Shown in pieces: positions 34,221-44,795 of a DNA stretch of 64,000 nucleotides; the stretch's first letter is position 1, and every line of letters begins with the position of its first letter. Both the position numbers and the translations under genes were made by a program. The stretch lies in assembly GCF_013348805.1 (NCBI RefSeq), contig NZ_CP054690.1, forward strand, positions 1,798,001 to 1,862,000, given 5' to 3'. The stretch is from Rhodococcus sp. W8901 (GTDB taxonomy: Bacteria; Actinomycetota; Actinomycetes; Mycobacteriales; Mycobacteriaceae). Under the pieces are notes generated by a model. It did no database searches. It saw only the letters and a list, made by a program, of their open reading frames with translations, and was not told the DNA's origin.

Positions 34221-35342
34221 TCACCGGCCGTTCCGCAGTCGGTCCTCTTCGCGCCGCTGCTCGGCCAGCCGGGCGATCACGTCGGCCGCGTCGATGCCCC
34301 CGGCGACCACACCGCGCTCGTCCACCGCGACACCGATCCCGGAGGGCGAGGAGATGGCGGCGTCGAGGGCCCGGCGCAGGTCCGTGCCGACCGTGAACAG
34401 CGAACCGCCGGCCGCGGTCGCGTCCGCGACGGTGCGTCCGGTGCGGACGGCGTCGACCCCGGCCGCGTCGATCCAACCCTGGGGGCGGTCGTCGGCGGTG
34501 ACGATCAACGCCCATTCGTCGGGGCCGAGCGTGGTTGTCGCGGCTTCGGATTCGCGCACGCGGCGGATCTCGCGCAGCTCCACCGTGTCGGCGCTGCGGA
34601 AGGACAATCCGCGGTACCCCCGATCGTGCCCCACGAAGTCGGCAACGAAATCGGTTGCGGGCGCCGAGAGTACGCTGCGCGGCGTGTCGAACTGCTGCAG
34701 GCGGCCGTGCGGGCCGAACACCGCGAGCCGGTCGCCGAGCCGGACGGCCTCGTCGATGTCGTGGGTGACGAACACGATGGTCTTGCGCAGCTCGGACTGC
34801 AGCCGCAGCATCTCCGACTGCAGATCGGCCCGTACCACCGGATCCACCGCGCTGAACGGCTCGTCCATCAACAGGATCGGGGGATCGGCCGCCAATGCCC
34901 GGGCCACGCCCACCCGCTGCTGCTGACCGCCGGACAGCTGGCCCGGATACCGTCCGGCCAGCGCCGGGTCCAAGCCCACGCGTTCGAGCACCTCGAGCGC
35001 GACCCGCCGCGCTGCGCGGCGCGAGTCGCCGCGCAGCACCGGAACGGTCGCGACGTTGTCGACGACGGTGCGGTGCGGCAGCAGGCCGGCGCTCTGGATG
35101 ACGTACCCGATGCCGAGTCGCAGTCGGACGGCGTCCGTCGCGGCCACGTCCTGACCGTCGACGGTGACGGTTCCCGCGGTGGGCAGCACCATCCGGTTGA
35201 TCATCCGCATCGACGTCGTCTTGCCGCACCCGGACGGGCCGACGAACACCGTGAACGAGCCTTCGTCGATCTTCAGGTCGAGGTCGTCGACGGCCACCGT
35301 GCCGTCGGGAAAACGTTTGGTGACACCGGAGAACGAGATCAC
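34221..35342 (-). CDS. osmoprotectant ABC transporter ATP-binding protein with CBS domains
   Basis: The 373-residue ATPase has Walker A GPSGCGKTTS (about 34-43), signature LSGGQQQR, Walker B ILLMDEPFSAVD and the H-loop THD. The C-terminal 120 residues form a CBS pair, as in OpuA/OpuC-type ATPases where CBS domains sense ionic strength or nucleotides. GTG 35342 overlaps the stop of the binding-protein gene (GTGA), which fixes the start. Confidence 0.92.
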   Translation of the reverse strand: MISFSGVTKRFPDGTVAVDDLDLKIDEGSFTVFVGPSGCGKTTSMRMINRMVLPTAGTVTVDGQDVAATDAVRLRLGIGYVIQSAGLLPHRTVVDNVATVPVLRGDSRRAARRVALEVLERVGLDPALAGRYPGQLSGGQQQRVGVARALAADPPILLMDEPFSAVDPVVRADLQSEMLRLQSELRKTIVFVTHDIDEAVRLGDRLAVFGPHGRLQQFDTPRSVLSAPATDFVADFVGHDRGYRGLSFRSADTVELREIRRVRESEAATTTLGPDEWALIVTADDRPQGWIDAAGVDAVRTGRTVADATAAGGSLFTVGTDLRRALDAAISSPSGIGVAVDERGVVAGGIDAADVIARLAEQRREEDRLRNGR

Positions 35343-36283
35343 GAGACGGGAGCGTCCAATCCCTGCCGTGCGACCCACTGCTTCGCCGCGGCCTCCGGTT
35401 CGGTCTTGCTGTCGCCCGATACGGCGTCGTTGAGGCCCACCAACTCCTCGGTGGTGAGCTTCGCCGACACAGCGTCCAGGACGCGCGCCAACTGCTCGGT
35501 CTTCGCGGATGCACGCAGCAGCGGCACCACGTTCTGCGCCGGGAAGTTGCTCTTCGGATCGGCCAGCACCACCAGATCGTTCGCCTCGATCGCGGGTGAG
35601 GTCGTGAAGATGTTCGCGGCGGTCACCTGTCCCGACGTCAGCGCCTTCACCGTCGCGGGGCCACCGCCGTCGGCGATCGGAACGAAGTTGGACGGCGAGA
35701 TCTCGAGTCCGTAGTTCTCGCGCAGGCCCGGAAGACCCACCGCGCGCTCCTGGAACTCGGCCGGCGCCGCGAACTTCACCTCCGCCGAATGCGCGGCGAG
35801 GTCGGCGATCGACGTCAGGTTCCATTTCTCGGCCGTCTCGCGCGTCACCACGACGGCGTCCTTGTCCTCGGCCGGTGCGGGTGTGGTGATCGCGAGATCC
35901 GGCGCGAGCGCAGCGGGCAGGGCGGCGTCGATTTCCTCGGCGGTCGTGGCCGTCGAGGACGGGTCGATGTAGTCGAGGAGATTCCCGGTGTAGTCGGGAA
36001 TGAGCGTGAGCGAACCGTCGCGCAGGGCCGGGACGTAGATCTCCCGGGAACCGATGTTCATCTTGGTCTGCACGTCGAAACCGTTGGCCCGCAGCGCCTC
36101 GGCGTAGACGAAGCCGACCGTCTCCGACTCGGGGAAGTTGGCGGAGCCGACGACGATCGAGTTGGGGTCACCACCGCTCGATCCATTGCTTTCGAGCGGG
36201 TCGCTGCTGCCGCACGCCGTGAGGAGTGCCAGTGACGCCGCGACTGCGACGCCCGCGAGCCTGTGGATCCGAGAACTCTTCAT
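35339..36283 (-). CDS. osmoprotectant-binding lipoprotein (OpuCC/ProX type)
   Basis: The 314-residue lipoprotein has the signal LAGVAVAASLALLTAC with a lipobox LTAC. The mature part IVVGSANFPESETVGFVYAEALRANGFDV and GLPDY-like LIPDYTGNLLDYID are typical of OpuAC-family binding proteins. It captures glycine betaine or similar solutes outside the membrane for the downstream ATPase and permeases. ATG 36283 is preceded by GGAAGGAC. A second binding protein is transcribed divergently. Confidence 0.92.
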   Translation of the reverse strand: MKSSRIHRLAGVAVAASLALLTACGSSDPLESNGSSGGDPNSIVVGSANFPESETVGFVYAEALRANGFDVQTKMNIGSREIYVPALRDGSLTLIPDYTGNLLDYIDPSSTATTAEEIDAALPAALAPDLAITTPAPAEDKDAVVVTRETAEKWNLTSIADLAAHSAEVKFAAPAEFQERAVGLPGLRENYGLEISPSNFVPIADGGGPATVKALTSGQVTAANIFTTSPAIEANDLVVLADPKSNFPAQNVVPLLRASAKTEQLARVLDAVSAKLTTEELVGLNDAVSGDSKTEPEAAAKQWVARQGLDAPVS

Positions 36284-36460
36284 GTCGTCCTTCCATCGGA
36301 TCCGGCGTGGCGGCCGCCCAGGGGAGCGGAGCCGTGCGGTGACAAGCCGGATCTCTCGACCGCTCGTGATGGTGCGCGAAGTCAGTGTAACGATAGGTAC
36401 GACAAGTGCGCGGTACCGACAGGTGCCGGTTCGCACCGCAGCAGAGCGGAGAGGGACACG
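36284..36460. promoter_or_regulatory. divergent promoter region of two binding-protein genes
   Basis: The 177-bp gap holds a cluster of -10-like AT-rich sequence around 36386-36403 (GTAACGATAGGTACGAC), the only such patch here. I cannot assign exact promoters for each direction. Confidence 0.35.
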
Positions 36461-37375
36461 GTGTCACCGAACGGAAATGGGCGCGTGGGCAGGTTCGCGG
36501 CGCGGTTGACGATCGCTGCGCTGCTCGCGGTCGTGACGGCCTGCGGTGTGGACACCGGCAGCAGCGTCGGGGGACCCGAGACACCCGAACCGGTCGTCGT
36601 CGGCGCCTCGGACACGGTCGAGAGCGAACTCGTCGCCCGGTTGTACGCGGGCGCGCTCGAAGCTGCCGGGCGCAGCACCGAAGTCGTGCTGGGGCTGGGA
36701 GACCGCGCCGACCGCGTCGCCGCCCTCGATGCGAACCGGGTGGCACTGGTGCCGGAGCACACCGGGCGCCTCCTGCACTGGTTCGATCCGGACGCCGATG
36801 TCACCGACGCCGAGGACGTATTCGAGGCGCTCAACAAGTCTCTGCCCGAAGGCCTTACGGTGTCCGACTACTCGCCGGCCGACGACCGGTCCGCGCTGGC
36901 GCTGTCCGCGGCACAGGCCGACGACCTCGGTGCCCGGTCGATCGACGACATCGCTTCCGCGTGCGCAGGCATGACGCTGTACGCATCCGACACGTTCCGC
37001 GAGGATGCGCAGGCGCTCTCGGGTCTCCGATCGGCCTACGGGTGCACGTTCGGGACCGTCGTCCCGGTCCGTTCGACCTCCGACGCGGCCCGTGAACTGA
37101 TCGTCGGCGCGTCACCCGTCGGCGGCACCACGGCCGCCGCACCCGACGTCGCGCGGGACGAGCTCGTCGTTCTCGCCGACACGAAGGACGCGTTCACCGC
37201 GCAGAACGTGGTGCCGCTCTTCCGCAGCGGGGTGCTGCGGGCCGACGACGTCAAGGGGCTCAGCGTGGTCCTGCAACTCACCACCGCGGACCTCACGGAC
37301 ATGGCCGGGCGGGTCCGCGGCGGCGAGATCACCTCGGCCGACGCCGCGGGGGAGTGGCTCGCCGAGCACATCTGA
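36461..37375 (+). CDS. second OpuAC-type binding lipoprotein, orphan
   Basis: The 304-residue protein has an N-terminal signal (RFAARLTIAALLAVVTAC, lipobox VTAC) and then PVVVGASDTVESELVARLYAGALEAAGRSTEVVLG and LVPEHTGRLLHWFDPDADV. It is a diverged paralogue of the binding protein on the other strand: it aligns through AQNVVPLFRS, which matches AQNVVPLLRA there. It has no permease of its own and presumably shares the adjacent transporter with a different ligand preference. GTG 36461 has GGAGAGGG upstream. Confidence 0.85.
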   Translation: MSPNGNGRVGRFAARLTIAALLAVVTACGVDTGSSVGGPETPEPVVVGASDTVESELVARLYAGALEAAGRSTEVVLGLGDRADRVAALDANRVALVPEHTGRLLHWFDPDADVTDAEDVFEALNKSLPEGLTVSDYSPADDRSALALSAAQADDLGARSIDDIASACAGMTLYASDTFREDAQALSGLRSAYGCTFGTVVPVRSTSDAARELIVGASPVGGTTAAAPDVARDELVVLADTKDAFTAQNVVPLFRSGVLRADDVKGLSVVLQLTTADLTDMAGRVRGGEITSADAAGEWLAEHI

Positions 37376-37398: not shown

Positions 37399-39744
37399 TC
37401 AGCCTCCCACCCGTGCCCGCGCTGCCGCGGCGGCGTCGTGCCGGCCGAGAGCTTCGTGGGCGTCGCCCTCCATCAGCGCGACCCGGACCGCGAGCCGCGG
37501 CGCCTCGGTCACCCGCGGCGCGGCGTCGGCGAGCACCGCGAGGGCCTCCTCGTGGCGGTCGGTCGACAGCAACGCCTGCGCGACGACGATCAGTGCGCTG
37601 CCGGAGCCGACGACGTCCTCGGCTGCGGCGTAGGCATCGGAGGCCGCGAGCCCCGTCCGTACCGCCTCGTCGAACCGGCCCAGCTGGGACAGTGCCCGAG
37701 CCGTCGAGTCCTCGATGTCCGCACGGGTCCAGGGGTCGGCGTGTTCGGCCGCGGCCCGTAGGTCCTCGAGCCCGTCCTCGTCGGCGAACTGGCACCGAGC
37801 CCGCCCACGTGCGTGCAGGAGGTCGGCGAGTGCGTCCGGCTGATCGGTGAGTTTCCGGGCGTCCTCGACCGCGTCGTCGAGGGCTTCGACGGCGTCCTCG
37901 TCGTCGAACTGCATCATCAGAAGCCCGAGTTCCTTGCCGACCCGTGCCGCCACCGCATAGTCCTCGCCCGCCCGGGCCAGCTCCCGGCCTTCGACCCACA
38001 CCGCGACCGCTGCCCCCGGCTCGCCGGCGTCGCGCCTCGCGTAGCCGAGCCACAGGAGGGTCAGGGCACGGGATGCGGGCTCGGTGTCCCGGGCTTCCTC
38101 GATCTCCGCCACCGTCGTGAGTTCGTCGACGGCCTCGTCGGGGTGTCCGGACCGTACGAGCGTCACGCCGAGCCGGTAGCGGTGGCCGACGGACTCGGTG
38201 CCGGCCAGATCCGCCTCGCGCGTGGCCAGGCGCAGTCGGCCGGCCGCCTCGTCCAGCCGGCCCAGGTCGTCGCAGATCTGGGCGCTCAGGGCAGCCAGCG
38301 GGGCGGTCACGGACCGGGCAGCGTGGGTAACGGACAGGTCGAGCGCGGCGTCGACCGCGGTCAGCGCCTCCTCGAACCGGCCGCCCCCAGCCAGTAGTTG
38401 GGCCAGCAACCGCAACAGCACCGCGCGGCGTCCGGGCGCGGTTGTCGGGGTCAGTTCGGACTCGAGCCAGGCGAGCGCCGCCTCCCCGCCCTCGGCACCC
38501 AGGATCGTGTCGACCTGCTCGTCCAGCGGGCCCGAGCCTGTCACCTCGTCGACGAAGGCCGTCGTCGCGGCCGGGTCCGCCGAGGCGGGAGGAGCTGGCA
38601 CAACGTGCGTCGTGCCGATCGGCAGGTCCCAGTGCTGCCCAGCCAGAGTCCTTGCGGCGGCGACCTTCTCGCTGCGCCGCTCGGTGCCGTTGCGCTCGTC
38701 GAATCGGGTCGCGAGTTCCTCGGCGGCACGCCAGGATGACTGTGCCAGTTCGGCGACGGTCCAGGCGCCGGTGTGCGCGCCGAAGAACCGGCGGAGGGGC
38801 TCCGCGCCGGCCCCGCGGACGTGCTCGTGTCCGAGCCCGGCACGGTCGGCCGCCGTGCACGTCACCGCGAAGGCGGTGAGGGCGTCGAGGTGCGCGATCG
38901 CGTTGAGGTTGTCGTGCGCCAGCCAGCCGATGTGCCGTTCGAGCATCTCCAGGGCGCGCTGAGCGTTTCCGGTGACCGAGAGGAAGATCAGGTGCTGCCC
39001 GACCATGTCGATGTTGTCGACGTTGCGGCGTGCGAGTCGGTAGCCCCGCATGTGCATCTGCTCGGCATCGTCGAGACGGCCGACCTGGAGCAGCGGCACC
39101 AGCGTGTGGGCCATCGCCCGCTCCGGTTCGTCGGCGCACCCCATGTCCTGGTCCAGCATCTCCTGGACGACGGCCAGTCCGGCCTCGAGGTCCCCGGTGG
39201 CGAGTCGGAACTGGGCCTCCTCGGAACGAACGCACGCCTCGCAGTGGCTGTAGTCGTCGCGCGGGGTCCGTCCCAGCTCCTCGAGGTAGCGGGCGGCCTC
39301 CTCGATCCGGCCTGCCTCGAATGCCTGCCAGAACCGGGTCTGCACCACCCCGGACAGGCCGACGCCGGCCTGCCGGTACGCGATCTCCATCTGCTCGATC
39401 GACTCGGCGATCGTCGCCCGCGGGAACATCGGGTTCGAGGCGAGCGCGTCGGCGATCCACTTGTGGAACCACAGCAGGTCGTGGTCGTCGACCTCGGTGG
39501 GGAAGGTGGCCGGGTCGGCGGCGTTTCGCCCGACACACCACGCGAATGCGGTGAGCAAGGCGTCGGTGTCGCCCGTCATGGAGGCGGACTGGATCAGGCG
39601 CATCCGCACGGCGTAGGCGGCGGCCTCGTCGCCGGTCTCCTCGGCGAGCGTGATCGCCCGCTCGATGAGTTCGCGTTCCGCCGGTCCGTAGGCCGTCGAG
39701 TCGATCTCGCTGATCAGTGCGTCGAGGGTGGTCTCAGTCGGCAT
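37399..39744 (-). CDS. large tetratricopeptide-like repeat protein, partner of HSP90-like gene
   Basis: The 781-residue soluble protein is almost entirely helical with repeated TPR-like pairs, for example LGRLDEAAGRLRLATREADLAGT, SGHPDEAVDELTTVAEIEEA and LGRFDEAVRTGLAASDAYAAAED, densest in the C-terminal half. There is no signal peptide, helix-turn-helix or enzymatic motif. ATG 39744 overlaps the stop of the HSP90-like gene by 11 nt, so the proteins are translated together. TPR proteins are common HSP90 co-chaperones in eukaryotes, so this may be a dedicated partner, which is inference. Confidence 0.78.
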   Translation of the reverse strand: MPTETTLDALISEIDSTAYGPAERELIERAITLAEETGDEAAAYAVRMRLIQSASMTGDTDALLTAFAWCVGRNAADPATFPTEVDDHDLLWFHKWIADALASNPMFPRATIAESIEQMEIAYRQAGVGLSGVVQTRFWQAFEAGRIEEAARYLEELGRTPRDDYSHCEACVRSEEAQFRLATGDLEAGLAVVQEMLDQDMGCADEPERAMAHTLVPLLQVGRLDDAEQMHMRGYRLARRNVDNIDMVGQHLIFLSVTGNAQRALEMLERHIGWLAHDNLNAIAHLDALTAFAVTCTAADRAGLGHEHVRGAGAEPLRRFFGAHTGAWTVAELAQSSWRAAEELATRFDERNGTERRSEKVAAARTLAGQHWDLPIGTTHVVPAPPASADPAATTAFVDEVTGSGPLDEQVDTILGAEGGEAALAWLESELTPTTAPGRRAVLLRLLAQLLAGGGRFEEALTAVDAALDLSVTHAARSVTAPLAALSAQICDDLGRLDEAAGRLRLATREADLAGTESVGHRYRLGVTLVRSGHPDEAVDELTTVAEIEEARDTEPASRALTLLWLGYARRDAGEPGAAVAVWVEGRELARAGEDYAVAARVGKELGLLMMQFDDEDAVEALDDAVEDARKLTDQPDALADLLHARGRARCQFADEDGLEDLRAAAEHADPWTRADIEDSTARALSQLGRFDEAVRTGLAASDAYAAAEDVVGSGSALIVVAQALLSTDRHEEALAVLADAAPRVTEAPRLAVRVALMEGDAHEALGRHDAAAAARARVGG

Positions 39745-41593
39745 GGTCGTCCTTGTCGATGGTGGAGGGGGAGTGCGGTCCGGCATCGGTGACGACGCCC
39801 GCGTCGAGACCGACGGACAGGTGCACGATGTCGGTCATGGCGTCGGTCAGGGCCGAGCGATCGGTCGCCCGCAGCGGCCGGTGCCCGGCAAGCAGTGCCT
39901 GGACGTAGAGGATCCGCACCGCCCGCGACAGCACCGCATCGTCGTCGACTGCGGCGAGGGTACGCACCAACCGATTTCGCCAGTTCAGGGCCAGCCGACC
40001 GGAGGCGTCGGCACCGGAGGCCGCCGCTGCGTCCTCCACCCGGCCGAGGACATCGGCCCAGAACCCACCGGCCGACTCGCCGGCTTGCTCGCGCCGCAGG
40101 TTCCGGAGCACCGCCTCGTCCGCGACGTACAGGGCGGGGACGGTTTCCGGCTGGAACGCCCGTACCGCGGTCGCGCAGTCGAGGTCCGCCAGCGCGGCGT
40201 CGGCACGCTCCTGCAGGCGGCGGGACGCGGCCCGCTCGGACAGCGGCGGCACATCGAGGTGGTCGATTTCGTCTGCCACGGTGACGATCTCGACTGCGGC
40301 ACCGGGCACGAACTCCGGCAGCCGGGCCGCGATCTCCGCGTCGTAGACGTAGCCGCCGTTGACGATCGGAGCGCCGGGGCGGGCGATCCCGGCCAGCTGC
40401 CGGAACTCGTCGACGGTCCGGGTGTACCGCACCGTGCCGCGGCGGGCGGCCTCGCCGAAGGTCGTCTGCCCCTCGGTGGTCTCGATCGGCAGGTGGGGGA
40501 CGATGAATCGGGCCAGTTCGTCGTCGTGGAGGACGAGCGCCCGCAACGCCAGATGGTGCACGGACAGGAACGCCGCCAGCCGGTGCGGCGATTCCGCCGC
40601 CAGACCGATGACCCAGCGGCGAACCGCGGCACCCAGCTCGGCACGAGTCTCCTCGAGCGCGGTGTCCTCGATCAGGGACTCGCGGGAGGCCGTCGGGTGC
40701 AGCCCGGTGGTGTCCACGACGGACCGCACGAAGAACGCCCAGTCCGGCAGGAGGTCGTCCATGCGCTCGGACAGCAGCATGCCGCCCAGGTAGACGCGGC
40801 TCGACTGCCGTTGGCCGGGGGAGAGCTGGAACGGCAGCACGAACGCGGTGCCCCGGGTGCCGGTGGACGGGACATGCAGCGGAATCGTGGCGAAGGGCTC
40901 GGCACCGACGATCTCCCGGCCCAGCTCGCGCAGCTCGGGCGACGGGACTGTCGTGCGCTCGAGGAACGACGCCGGTCGAGTCACCGTCTCACCGGCCACG
41001 GTCACCCGCACCGGCAGGTGCCGGCCGAACCGGTCTGCCAGCTCGTGCGCCCCCGCGCGCGATACGAGTCCGGCCGAGTCCGGGCGGGGGAACAGTTCGA
41101 CCCGGGTTCCGACCGGCAGATCGTCGGCGAGCTCGGTCACCGTGAACGTGCCGTCGGTGCGGCCGACCCATTCGACGGCGGGCGCACCGGTGGCCGACCG
41201 GGACCGGACCCGGATCTCGTCGCTCACCATGAAGCAGCTGAGCAGGCCGATCCCGAACTGGCCGAGGCGGTCGGTGCGGGGCAGATCGAGGATGTCGCGC
41301 TTGGAACTGCGGCCCACCGTCGCGAGCAGCTCGCCCACCTCGGCCGCGGTCAGCCCGACGCCGTCGTCCTCGACCGCGAACACGGCCCCCGCCTCGTCTG
41401 CGGGCAGCACCCGGATGGTGCCGATGTGGCCGGGTTCGTGGTCGCGACGGGCCGCGATCGCATCGCACCCGTTCTGCAGGAGCTCACGGATGAAGACCTG
41501 CGGCCCGGTGTAGATGCTCGCGCTGAGAAGCTCGATGATCCCACCGAGGTGTACCTGGAATGGACGGCTGCCGCCGTCGGCTCTCGTTGTCAT
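39734..41593 (-). CDS. HSP90-family (HtpG-like) ATPase, divergent
   Basis: The 619-residue protein has a complete GHKL ATPase domain: ELLQNGCDAI (Glu37, Asn41), VEDDGVGLT (Asp76/77), RSSKRD and GQFGIGLLSCFMVSD (111-125). A middle domain follows, with SRESLIEDTAL near Arg303, the arginine that contacts ATP in HSP90. The C-terminal 300 residues differ strongly from E. coli HtpG, and the protein ends in an acidic IDKDDHAD. It overlaps the TPR-like gene downstream, so it is probably not the housekeeping HtpG. Clients are unknown. Confidence 0.85.
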   Translation of the reverse strand: MTTRADGGSRPFQVHLGGIIELLSASIYTGPQVFIRELLQNGCDAIAARRDHEPGHIGTIRVLPADEAGAVFAVEDDGVGLTAAEVGELLATVGRSSKRDILDLPRTDRLGQFGIGLLSCFMVSDEIRVRSRSATGAPAVEWVGRTDGTFTVTELADDLPVGTRVELFPRPDSAGLVSRAGAHELADRFGRHLPVRVTVAGETVTRPASFLERTTVPSPELRELGREIVGAEPFATIPLHVPSTGTRGTAFVLPFQLSPGQRQSSRVYLGGMLLSERMDDLLPDWAFFVRSVVDTTGLHPTASRESLIEDTALEETRAELGAAVRRWVIGLAAESPHRLAAFLSVHHLALRALVLHDDELARFIVPHLPIETTEGQTTFGEAARRGTVRYTRTVDEFRQLAGIARPGAPIVNGGYVYDAEIAARLPEFVPGAAVEIVTVADEIDHLDVPPLSERAASRRLQERADAALADLDCATAVRAFQPETVPALYVADEAVLRNLRREQAGESAGGFWADVLGRVEDAAAASGADASGRLALNWRNRLVRTLAAVDDDAVLSRAVRILYVQALLAGHRPLRATDRSALTDAMTDIVHLSVGLDAGVVTDAGPHSPSTIDKDDHAD

Positions 41594-41689: not shown

Positions 41690-42520
41690 TCAGTTCGCCT
41701 TCGGCAGGACGCGCGAGGTGATCGTCGCGACCACCCGCTGGTAGCTCGGGCCGACGATGCGCACCCAGGCGTCGAGGAACTTGGCGTCGGCACCGATCAG
41801 CACGCGCGCCTTGCCTTTTCGCACTCCGTTCACGATGGTCTTCGCGGCGTCCTCGGGCGTGGTGCGGGCCAGGTGCTTGTCGAAGAACTGGGCGAAGGTC
41901 ACCTGGTCGTCGCCGTCGGGCACCGCCGCGTTTCGGGCGATCGCGGTCTTGATGCCGCCGGGATGCACGCACGTCACCTTCACGGGGTGCTTGGCGATCA
42001 GCATCTCCTGGCGCAGCGATTCGGTGAACCCGCGCACCGCGAACTTGGCTGCGTTGTACGCGCTCTGGCCCGGAATCGACAGCAGTCCGAACAGGCTCGA
42101 GACATTGACGATGTGTCCGTCGCCGGACGCGATCACGTGCGGCAGGAACGCCTTGGTGCCGTTCACGACACCCCAGAAGTCGACGTCCATGATGCGCTCG
42201 ATGTCCTTGAACTCCGAGCGCTCGACCTCGCCGTGGAAGGCGATGCCGGCGTTGTTGTAGATCTGGTTGACCTTGCCGAAGTGCGCCACGACGGCGTCCG
42301 CGTACTCGAGGACGGCCTCGCGCTGGGTGACGTCGAGATGATCGGACTTCACGTGCGCGCCGAGCGCCTCGACCTGTCGTACCGTCTCCGCCAGGCCTGC
42401 CGGATCCATATCCGAGAGAGCGAGTTTCGCGCCCTGTCCGGCGAGGTTCAGTGCTACGGCCCGGCCGATGCCGGACCCCGCACCGGTGATGACACAGACC
42501 TCGCCCGCGAATTCACTCAC
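41690..42520 (-). CDS. short-chain dehydrogenase/reductase (SadH-like)
   Basis: The 276-residue classical SDR has the cofactor motif TGAGSGIGRAVA (about 12-23), NNAGIAFHG, the catalytic Ser in VNVSSLFG and Y-x3-K in SAYNAAKFAVRG. It oxidises or reduces an alcohol/ketone with NAD(P). GTG 42520 overlaps the monooxygenase stop as GTGA. The pairing of a flavin monooxygenase with this SDR resembles the mymA-sadH arrangement of M. tuberculosis. Confidence 0.88.
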   Translation of the reverse strand: MSEFAGEVCVITGAGSGIGRAVALNLAGQGAKLALSDMDPAGLAETVRQVEALGAHVKSDHLDVTQREAVLEYADAVVAHFGKVNQIYNNAGIAFHGEVERSEFKDIERIMDVDFWGVVNGTKAFLPHVIASGDGHIVNVSSLFGLLSIPGQSAYNAAKFAVRGFTESLRQEMLIAKHPVKVTCVHPGGIKTAIARNAAVPDGDDQVTFAQFFDKHLARTTPEDAAKTIVNGVRKGKARVLIGADAKFLDAWVRIVGPSYQRVVATITSRVLPKAN

Positions 42521-44115
42521 TGTGCTGCCACCTTGTCGTCGTCGAGATCGGTCAGTTCGGTATCGATGTCTGCTGCGGTCGACACCGCCGCGGGTGCGGG
42601 CACCGGCAGGTCGCCGGTGGTCACGCTGCGGTACGCGCCGAGGTCGAATTGCTTTGTCATGTTGCGGAACTCGAACGTGAAGCCCGGCCACAGCGTGGTG
42701 TTGTTGCCGTGCTTGTCGAGGTACCAGCTGGCGCAGCCGCCGTTGTTCCACACGCTCTTGGACAGCCTGTCCTGCAGTTCCCGGTTGTAGCGGTCCTGCA
42801 CGTCCTTGCGGACCTCGATGGTGCCGATGTCGTAGCGCTCGATCGCGTCGATCGCATCGACGACGTAGTTGAGCTGCGACTCGATCATGAACACCATCGA
42901 CGAGTGGCCCAGTCCGGTGTTGGGGCCGACGAGGAAGAACATGTTGGGGTAGTTCGCGATTGCGGAGCCCTTGTATCCCTGCTGTCCGCCCTCGTCGAAC
43001 GTCTCGGCCAGCGAGCGTCCGTCCTTGCCGAAGATGCCGGCGAAGGTGGGGGAGTCGGTGACGTGGAAGCCGGTGGCAACCACGATCGCGTCCACCTCCC
43101 GGACCGTGCCGTTCCTGTCGACGACGGAATCGGCGCGCACCTCGGCGATGCCGTCGGTGACCACGTCGACGTTCGACTGCGCGAGCGCCGGGTAGTAGTT
43201 GTTCGAGATCAGCATGCGCTTGCAGCCGATCTGGAAGTCGGGGGTGACCTTGCGGCGCAGCGCCCTGTCCTCGATCTGACGGCGCAGGTGGCGCTCGGCC
43301 GCGAGCTGCAACGGCTTCATGAAGATCGGGGCCTTGGCCAGACCCACGACCTGAGTCTCCCGCATCCAGTAGATGCCGGTGCGGCAGAGCTTCTGGAAAC
43401 CGGGCAGGTACTTGAACGCGAGATGCTCGGCCTTGGTGTACTCGCGGTCCGCGCGCGGCAGGATCCACGGCGCGGTGCGCTGGTACACGTCGAGGTGGGA
43501 GACCTTCTGCGCGAGTTGCGGCACGATCTGGATCGCCGACGCGCCGGTGCCGATCACCGCGACCCGCTTGCCGGTGAGGTCGGCGTCGTGGTTCCACTGC
43601 GCGGAGTGGAAGATCTCGCCCTCGAACTCGTCGATGCCCTTGATGTCGGGCAGCGACGGCTCGCACAGCGCGCCGACGGCGGAGACGACGATCTTGGCCT
43701 CGAAGTCGCCCTTCGACGTGCGGACGTCCCAGCGGGCCGTGTCCTCGTTCCAGTGCGCCGAGAGCACGTCGCACCCGAACACGTGCCTGTCGAGCACGTT
43801 GTACTTGCGGGCGACCGACGAGATGTAGCGCTGGATCTCGGGCTGTGGCGAGAACGAGCGGGTCCACTCCGGATTGAGTGCGAACGAGTACGAGTACAGG
43901 TGCGACGGGACGTCGCACGCCGCACCGGGATAGGTGTTGTCGCGCCACGTGCCGCCCACGTCGGCGCCGCGCTCGAGGACGAGGAAGTTGCGCTTGCCTG
44001 CCTGCGTCAGTTTGATAGCCGCGCCGAGGCCGGCGAAGCCGCTGCCGATGATCAGTGTGTCGACCTGGCGCGGAGATGCCGCCCGGGCGGAAGTATCTGT
44101 GACGGGAAGACTCAT
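42517..44115 (-). CDS. FAD-dependent monooxygenase, Baeyer-Villiger type
   Basis: The 532-residue flavoprotein has a FAD motif IIGSGFAGLGAA (about 23-34), GGTWRDNTYPGAACD, the BVMO fingerprint FEGEIFHSAQWN (F-x-G-x3-H-x3-W), and an NAD(P)H motif VIGTGASAIQ. Such enzymes insert oxygen next to ketones; mycobacterial relatives include EthA and MymA. ATG 44115 follows TACGCT at 7 nt, with TTGACT 17 nt further upstream. It is divergent from a TetR gene and co-transcribed with an SDR. Confidence 0.9.
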   Translation of the reverse strand: MSLPVTDTSARAASPRQVDTLIIGSGFAGLGAAIKLTQAGKRNFLVLERGADVGGTWRDNTYPGAACDVPSHLYSYSFALNPEWTRSFSPQPEIQRYISSVARKYNVLDRHVFGCDVLSAHWNEDTARWDVRTSKGDFEAKIVVSAVGALCEPSLPDIKGIDEFEGEIFHSAQWNHDADLTGKRVAVIGTGASAIQIVPQLAQKVSHLDVYQRTAPWILPRADREYTKAEHLAFKYLPGFQKLCRTGIYWMRETQVVGLAKAPIFMKPLQLAAERHLRRQIEDRALRRKVTPDFQIGCKRMLISNNYYPALAQSNVDVVTDGIAEVRADSVVDRNGTVREVDAIVVATGFHVTDSPTFAGIFGKDGRSLAETFDEGGQQGYKGSAIANYPNMFFLVGPNTGLGHSSMVFMIESQLNYVVDAIDAIERYDIGTIEVRKDVQDRYNRELQDRLSKSVWNNGGCASWYLDKHGNNTTLWPGFTFEFRNMTKQFDLGAYRSVTTGDLPVPAPAAVSTAADIDTELTDLDDDKVAAQ

Positions 44116-44122
44116 GTAGATG

Positions 44123-44151
44123 AGCGTAGGGAGTTGTTGATTGCTAGTCAA
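44123..44151 (-). promoter_or_regulatory. sigma-70 promoter of monooxygenase operon
   Basis: On the minus strand -35 TTGACT (44151-44146), a 17-nt spacer and -10 TACGCT (44128-44123) form the best canonical promoter seen in the window. The -10 ends 7 nt before ATG 44115, so the mRNA would be leaderless. Confidence 0.65.
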
Positions 44152-44156
44152 TAGTC

Positions 44157-44175
44157 TACTGAACACGATTCAGTA
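44157..44175. promoter_or_regulatory. TetR operator TACTGAA-N5-TTCAGTA
   Basis: The perfect 7-bp arms lie 5 bp upstream of the monooxygenase -35 and overlap the tetR -10 (44174-44179). One repressor dimer could control both promoters. Confidence 0.65.
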
Positions 44176-44179
44176 AGGT
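44174..44179 (+). promoter_or_regulatory. -10 element, leaderless tetR promoter
   Basis: TAAGGT ends 7 nt before ATG 44187. Confidence 0.5.
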
Positions 44180-44186
44180 GGACGTC

Positions 44187-44795
44187 ATGGAAGGCGCAAA
44201 ACGCACGCGGCTCAGCCCCCAGGAACGGCGCGCGCAGCTCATCGATCTGGGCGTGCGCATGCTCGCGGAACGGACGCTCGAACAGATCTCGGTCGAGGAC
44301 ATCGCCGACCGGGCTGGGGTGTCCCGCGGCCTGCTGTTCCACTACTTCGCGTCCAAGCACGACTTCCACGTCGAGATCGTCCGCCACACCAGCGCCGAGA
44401 TGCTCGACCGCACCGCGCCGAACCTCGATCTGGAACCGATCGAGATCCTGCGCGACGTCATGGCGTCGTACGTCGACTACGTCTCCGAGAACCGCGACAC
44501 CTACGTCTCGCTGCTGCGCGGAACCGCGAGCGGTGATCCGGCGATGCGGGAGGTGTTCGAACAGACCCGGGCCGAGATGGCACGCCGGGTCGTCGAGCAG
44601 TTGCCGACGCTCGGCATCGAACCGGACGCGCGCATCGCGCTGTCCGTGCGAGGCTGGATCGCCTTCGTCGAGGAAGCGACCATCACATGGCTGCGGGCGC
44701 CCGAGATCTCCCGTGAGGAACTGATCGAACTCCTGGTCACGGCGCTGCCGGCCGTTGCGCTCAGCTCCGACATGGCGGCGGCGCTGCTCCAGTAG
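44187..44795 (+). CDS. TetR-family regulator of the monooxygenase operon
   Basis: The 202-residue regulator has the TetR helix-turn-helix ISVEDIADRAGVSRGLLFHYFASKHDFH (about 35-62) and a helical ligand domain. ATG 44187 is set by the leaderless -10; GTG 44178 would lie within that hexamer. It is divergent from the monooxygenase/SDR operon with a shared palindromic operator. Confidence 0.9.
   Translation: MEGAKRTRLSPQERRAQLIDLGVRMLAERTLEQISVEDIADRAGVSRGLLFHYFASKHDFHVEIVRHTSAEMLDRTAPNLDLEPIEILRDVMASYVDYVSENRDTYVSLLRGTASGDPAMREVFEQTRAEMARRVVEQLPTLGIEPDARIALSVRGWIAFVEEATITWLRAPEISREELIELLVTALPAVALSSDMAAALLQ

Follow-up and report, generated by a model that had tools for sequence, protein, structure and literature searches.

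Does this bacterial HSP90 have a partner protein of its own, encoded next to it? The question is raised by two overlapping genes in a 64,000-nucleotide stretch of the genome of Rhodococcus sp. W8901 (contig NZ_CP054690.1, positions 1,798,001 to 1,862,000; hereafter the window, whose own numbering is used below). The upstream gene (39734..41593) encodes an HSP90-family protein of 619 amino acids and the downstream gene (37399..39744) a protein of 781 amino acids with a predicted superhelix of tetratricopeptide repeats (TPR); both genes, and all of their features given below, are on the minus strand. An earlier note on this DNA had proposed an independent bacterial HSP90-TPR machine, by analogy to eukaryotes, in which an acidic peptide at the end of HSP90 recruits TPR co-chaperones. 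Our analyses retain from this interpretation an HSP90-TPR pair that is separate from the housekeeping HtpG, and do not retain the EEVD-like acidic tail. Overall, we consider it reasonably likely (probability of roughly 60%) that this HSP90 works with a TPR protein dedicated to it as co-chaperone or adaptor, which would dock on its middle and C-terminal domains, and sequence comparison makes it probable that some bacteria possess an HSP90 partner system of their own.

An HSP90 gene and a TPR gene side by side

By its score against the NCBIfam model NF010683 ("HSP90 family protein", equivalent to PRK14083; 689.9 bits, cut-off 455), the window HSP90 is a member of a known, uncharacterised family, and it scores 142 bits against the model of ordinary HtpG (NF003555), i.e., under the cut-off of 371; its closest relative is found in Rhodococcus maanshanensis (98%). 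The structural model of the window HSP90, of good confidence like that of the TPR protein, has a complete HSP90 fold (VIA-align, which rests on Foldseek's ranking), with the N-terminal (residues ~1-205), middle (~206-425) and C-terminal (~426-599) domains in the order found in the HSP90 superfamily and with C-terminal dimerisation helices. The GHKL ATP site (41246..41485) is intact, as had been read from the sequence before, and consists of Glu37, Asn41, Asp76, the lid and GQFGIG (residues 111-116); the key residues are invariant in 24 diverse relatives, and Gln112 is nearly so. Arg304, the middle-domain arginine in an SRE motif (40682..40684), is invariant in the 24 relatives as well, and we presume a catalytic role for it by analogy to Arg380 of yeast Hsp90. 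The conservation analysis of HSP90 leaves out three loci (L085, L094 and L095). A second, housekeeping htpG, for which the earlier note had proposed to look, is present in the same genome (5.7 Mb, one contig) without inner stops (G000:C1:1411369-1413291, 785.9 bits), and one refuting case of the earlier note, that of a sole HtpG in this genome, therefore does not apply.

For the TPR protein, the only family matches are to general TPR models (Pfam TPR_2 and TPR_8); it reaches no NCBIfam cut-off and has no PDB sequence match at E 0.01. Its AlphaFold2 model (predicted local distance difference test score, pLDDT, of 92.2) is matched by Foldseek to structures that include TPR superhelices (e.g., LGN), and tandem helix-turn-helix TPR units are recognised by Pfam, in the model and by Foldseek. 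The stop of the HSP90 gene and the start of the TPR gene overlap by 11 nt (39734..39744), which confirms the overlap described in the earlier note.

We investigated how regularly the two genes occur together. HSP90s above the NF010683 cut-off were found in 12 of 296 genomes of a phylum sample, in 54 of 394 genomes of a class sample (HSP90 E 1e-100) and in 5 of 14 genomes of a genus sample (including the window's own genome), to which a genome that is 79% complete adds a partial match. Regions were fetched for 65 places, i.e., all 61 places of the class sample besides the window's own and 4 places of the genus sample (the partial HSP90 of genome G657 was left outside), and a further set of named loci comprised the best 80 of 568; 3 loci are common to the named and fetched sets. 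A TPR homologue was located beside the HSP90 gene on the same strand in 65 of the 66 loci represented by the fetched regions and the window, and in all 80 named loci. Taken together, the distinct loci number 143, most of them by far actinobacterial, and 142 have the partner; the earlier note would have been refuted by homologues that usually occur apart, and this is not the case. This count takes as partner-bearing one locus with a shifted frame (L085) and one with a fragment (L142, from a planctomycete metagenome-assembled genome, where the partner is represented only by 62 amino acids at the contig end; 30 bits, E ~8e-9). The 1625-amino-acid frame of L085 (genome G638) looked like an HSP90-TPR fusion; this was rejected, as the HSP90 end lies in another frame and the frame is thus shifted there. 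Among the named loci, the partner match starts between -26 and +195 nt relative to the HSP90 stop, the +195 belonging to a locus (L103) with a broken HSP90 frame; a Nocardia locus (L164) has a partner match of 146 bits. Of 143 pairs, the TPR open reading frame overlaps the HSP90 stop in 113, is separated from it by 0-100 nt in 27 and has a wider gap in 3.

The two proteins also co-occur. A search of the 394 genomes (single query, E 1e-20, two candidates scored per genome) found the TPR protein in 52 genomes, and all 52 are among the 54 HSP90-positive ones; the two others are G609, with a weaker adjoining partner (118 bits), and G270, with none. As a control, a partner was present within 1.5 kb, the same flank for both types, in 0 of 20 HtpG-type loci as compared to 13 of 14 NF010683 loci. 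Of 58 genomes that encode an NF010683 HSP90, an ordinary HtpG (E 1e-60) was found in 21 and none was found in the other 37, and the NF010683 type is thus often the only HSP90 found in other genomes.

Six genomes, which by shared loci belong to Streptomyces, have two aligned copies of the pair, and in these a separate TPR gene accompanies each HSP90 copy; the copies are 59-62% and 30-33% identical. Across 59 pairs (for which L095 was additionally left out), HSP90 distances correlate with TPR distances (r 0.93 for the whole TPR protein and 0.94 for its core), and the four clusters of the one protein correspond one to one to those of the other for all 59 pairs. This matched divergence, as far as sequences can tell, shows shared descent as a unit and not contact. 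Two unrelated cytosolic proteins might alternatively just be co-regulated in one operon, in favour of which it can be said that contact between the proteins is something that we infer. The linkage, however, persists across Actinomycetota among neighbours that differ, holds for both copies of the duplicated pairs and recurs in the loci examined from Bacillota (two) and from a planctomycete (one); we regard co-regulation alone as very improbable.

A core module with invariant cysteines

Conservation within the TPR protein is concentrated in its N-terminal part. Among 60 TPR sequences (L049, L082, L086 and L087 were left out, and L085 and L094 have no separate TPR frame), 57 of the 67 columns that are conserved in at least 85% of the sequences fall in residues 1-356, and this clustering delimits a putative core partner module (residues ~1-356; 38677..39744). 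Cys168 and Cys171 (C168-x2-C171; 39232..39243), Cys203 (39136..39138) and His231 are identical in 60 of 60 sequences and in all 26 diverse ones. The AlphaFold2 model has Cys168 and Cys171 opening one helix and Cys203 just before the next-but-one helix, and because of these positions a metal or thiol site shared by the three cysteines is plausible. At the level of sequence, an invariant Lys95 and other conserved basic residues are seen in the TPR protein.

The core is also found on its own. In Paenibacillus cellulosilyticus the core alone follows the HSP90 gene as a 354-amino-acid frame (213.7 bits), a Listeria record has two tandem core copies after HSP90 (178.9 and 172.2 bits), and a gut contig filed as phage carries the whole pair (core match 222.7 bits). 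The C-terminal TPR array is variable, being missing in Paenibacillus and part of a Streptomyces protein of ~1000 residues in total. Sequence comparison thus places the core module, including the Cys site, in Actinomycetota as well as two Bacillota loci, and neither Pfam nor NCBIfam has a named family for this C-x2-C...C TPR core module. Sampling beyond Actinomycetota covered plasmid, phage and E. coli collections as well as the one planctomycete locus. With regard to viral carriage, one scan of viral contigs gave 34 pattern matches, which encode no relative, and a second scan gave no match. L180 (MT837560.1) and the Listeria phage records H42 and H43 are filed as phage, carry the HSP90 gene and resemble bacterial DNA.

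The distribution of conserved residues bears on the main rival explanation, namely that the TPR protein is a dedicated client, so that the HSP90 would fold or hold one giant TPR regulator that does the real work. One-to-one linkage and gene overlap fit a client as well as a partner, and the TPR array is both large and variable in length. On the other hand, the partners in Paenibacillus and Listeria are compact (~320-354 residues) and would hardly need a private HSP90, and the conserved residues cluster in the module (57 of 67 columns) rather than along the whole chain. Moreover, genome G597 has an extra TPR copy without an HSP90 of its own, though the genome has another. We give the client explanation a modest chance and continue to prefer a TPR protein that acts as co-chaperone or adaptor.

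The HSP90 tail and a proposed place of docking

If the pair worked like the eukaryotic machine, as the earlier note had it, the acidic HSP90 tail would sit in a TPR carboxylate clamp, which in eukaryotes comprises the residues K, N, N, K and R. The tail of the window HSP90 (residues 600-619; 39737..39796) ends in IDKDDHAD, and DKDDHA, followed by D or E, is shared by the window and four congeners; furthermore, 20 of 144 tails have a net charge of -3 or lower. Across the family, however, the HSP90s of the 144 loci that could be read to the stop (146 loci minus L085 and L103) have 116 different tails over their last 8 residues. None of the 144 has an EEVD-like tail or ends in VD, Arg is the most frequent last residue (55 of 144), the net charge is zero or positive in 50 of 144, and DKDDHA is found in only 5 of 144; on these sequences the tail is not conserved outside the genus. 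Residues 600-619 have a pLDDT below 50, and the tail is probably disordered according to the model.

The tail codons themselves offer another explanation for the conservation within the genus. These codons (ATC GAC AAG GAC GAC CAT GCC GAC) contain AAGGA (39750..39754), by its sequence the probable Shine-Dalgarno element of the TPR gene, at 39754-39750, 5 nt ahead of the TPR ATG at 39744. This ribosome-binding site and start codon, which overlap the tail, could by themselves account for the conservation of the acidic tail among the congeners, and the tail can therefore be a by-product of the overlapping TPR start site. The eukaryote-like acidic tail was thus rejected, family-wide on the basis of the 144 tails and in the genus as explained by the overlapping TPR start, and we find binding of the tail in a clamp scarcely credible.

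A different place of docking is suggested by the one HSP90 that lacks a partner (L094, genome G270). In this protein, 23 of 62 near-invariant residues of the middle and C-terminal domains are changed as compared to 3 of 51 in the N-terminal domain; these changes, which come from one sequence, hint at a docking face on the middle and C-terminal domains.

In the reading that we prefer, the two genes would give rise to one machine, in which an HSP90 from a second bacterial lineage acts as an ATP-driven clamp and is joined by a TPR co-chaperone or adaptor dedicated to it. The TPR protein would be made in step with HSP90 from the overlapping genes, and HSP90 would dimerise through its C-terminal helices and cycle by ATP binding to its N domain, like other HSP90s. 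The TPR protein would dock through its 350-residue core on the folded middle and C-terminal part of HSP90, and not on the C-terminal peptide; Cys168, Cys171 and Cys203 would together act as a metal or thiol site, by which the module is held or switched. The variable C-terminal TPR array would select the clients, which may differ between lineages.

Genomic context, distant pairs and known systems

The genes around the pair differ between genera. Among the representative neighbours that were scanned, those in Streptomyces are recG, an rsmD-like methyltransferase gene and a DAK2/FakA-like gene, and those in Microbacterium are secE and nusG. The largest neighbour cluster beyond the pair covers 44 of 146 loci, and a scan of 9 representatives of recurring neighbour clusters found no common third gene or effector. 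Genus-dependent neighbours, with no cluster above 44 of 146 loci, favour a general role in the cell over a defence island, as far as gene context can indicate.

Some further genes were noted along the way. In the window, two divergent, related substrate-binding lipoprotein genes (36263-37375, plus strand, and 35339-36436, minus strand) lie beside an osmoprotectant-type ABC transporter; both proteins have an 'AQNVVPL' stretch and look like paralogues by eye. On the other side of the pair, and also judged by eye, a flavin-monooxygenase-like gene (42517-44166, minus strand) is located by a frame resembling a short-chain dehydrogenase, and a TetR-like regulator (44178-44795, plus strand) is divergent to these. 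At another locus (L001, 85-1113), a repeat-rich (GS/DGS) protein that looks secreted by eye adjoins the ordinary htpG.

More distant pairs were found in gamma-proteobacteria. Xanthomonas and Salmonella have a distant HSP90 (276.7 and 285.8 bits to NF010683, below the cut-off) followed by a protein of ~770 amino acids, and a distant pair is also present in P. aeruginosa, where we take it to be PA1068/PA1069, the names having been matched by counting genes back from flgB. Of 5426 complete E. coli genomes, 245 carry the distant pair somewhere on the chromosome, according to a DNA query across both genes. In E. coli FDAARGOS_144 (L184) it is located between fdhD and yiiG; in K-12 MG1655 (L197) these two genes are side by side and the pair is absent. 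Four gamma-type partners have the common motif RIDP-[ST]-W-x-C-x2-C, and a kinship of the gamma-proteobacterial partner with the actinobacterial TPR family is suggested by sequence.

As some anti-phage systems combine a GHKL ATPase with a TPR sensor, the pair could alternatively be a conflict or defence system. Its distribution is patchy (54 of 394 genomes for the HSP90, and 245 of 5426 for the distant pair in E. coli), the distant pair is present or absent at the one fdhD-yiiG site, the HSP90 has a weak GHKL match to TmtA of PADLOC (E 2e-8), and a cyanobacterial relative is located near a TIR gene. Yet the TmtA match is limited to the ATP-binding fold, no full-length match to a PADLOC component was obtained and the TPR protein matches 0 PADLOC families at E 0.01; in addition, no effector recurs among the scanned neighbours, and the locations are beside ordinary cellular genes. 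A defence role therefore seems improbable to us. The cyanobacterial relative, on a Pseudanabaena plasmid (L188, 5210-10792), is an 877-amino-acid HSP90-like ATPase encoded beside a TIR-domain gene, followed by a hypothetical gene and a TPR gene, and is a possible conflict-system cousin.

Several observations weigh against a dedicated co-chaperone. The HSP90 of G270 is without a partner, and none was found in that genome; its changes come from a single divergent sequence, and the N domain is in any case the more constrained part of an HSP90. The extra TPR copy of G597 (L196) has no HSP90 in the region of 13 kb fetched for it, with a full pair elsewhere in that genome, and is probably what remains of a duplicated pair that lost its HSP90. 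The single-query, two-candidate search could have missed lone distant TPR relatives, and shared descent would make the divergence of linked genes correlate even if the proteins made no contact. As to the distant pairs, alignment of the gamma-type with the actinobacterial partner (hhalign) gave E 5e-4 and a probability of 33%, with the CxxC in register; Pfam TPR matches of the gamma-type partner are below the cut-off, and a gamma-type partner in Nonomuraea is without CxxC and has no NF010683-like HSP90 within 6 kb. Finally, in one heat-shock transcriptome of P. aeruginosa, PA1069 (which we take to be the partner) is down and htpG is up (PMC4957987), and the partner may thus be no heat-shock chaperone in that organism.

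A wider reading seems to us evenly poised: that this is bacteria's own HSP90-co-chaperone machine, old or transferred widely between phyla, in which a dedicated TPR protein with a Cys site binds folded domains instead of a tail peptide, that TPR co-chaperones arose more than once, and that this HSP90 is the sole one in many actinobacteria. The near-obligate TPR partner, if the proposal is true, would be a dedicated partner of the co-chaperone kind for a bacterial HSP90 and would make the question of HSP90 client specificity testable in simple organisms. The NF010683 proteins, which include those of the 37 of 58 genomes without a detected HtpG, would gain a partner to be studied with. A description of the TPR partner, the core module or the pairing was not found in one open-access library (most subscription papers and bioRxiv were outside the scope of this search).

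Bacterial HSP90s are usually discussed without TPR co-chaperones, and no TPR partner is known for mitochondrial TRAP1. Ordinary HtpG (NF003555) shares with the window HSP90 the N-M-C fold, the ATP site, the SRE arginine and the C-terminal helix motif; it differs in the model score given above and in that 20 of 20 HtpG-type loci are without a TPR partner within 1.5 kb. Global alignment (hhalign) of the C-terminal halves of window-type HSP90 and HtpG gave no match. The models NF010683 and PRK14083 cover the HSP90 alone, with the TPR partner outside the model.

A second HTPG was described as early as 2006. Chen et al. (2006, PMC1525184) reported HTPG1 and HTPG2 of S. coelicolor and three groups of HTPG, with the second HTPG of Streptomyces (615 amino acids) in a different group. 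Their idea of a separate second lineage is the same as ours, and we infer that their HTPG2 lineage (Group C) corresponds to NF010683; different here are the TPR partner, the core module and the near-obligate pairing, the words TPR, tetratricopeptide, operon, neighbor and adjacent being absent from the main text of that paper as far as it was available. The HtpG of S. hygroscopicus, which was studied for geldanamycin, is reported to have the changes E88G and N92L (PMC3603443). It is a possible member of NF010683; among the 65 sequences compared, the place of E88 has no Gly (Asp 31, Glu 26 and Gln 8) and the place of N92 has Leu in 50, and Leu at this place is also found in a Streptomyces HtpG (L018).

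Bacteria are reported to be without a Hop orthologue (PMC7688965). The eukaryotic Hsp90 system with Hop, FKBP51/52 and PP5 has the same two elements as the pair described here, i.e., an HSP90 plus a TPR protein. Unlike that system, the bacterial pair is without the EEVD tail, and its TPR protein is encoded in the same operon, contains a Cys site and has no PDB sequence match.

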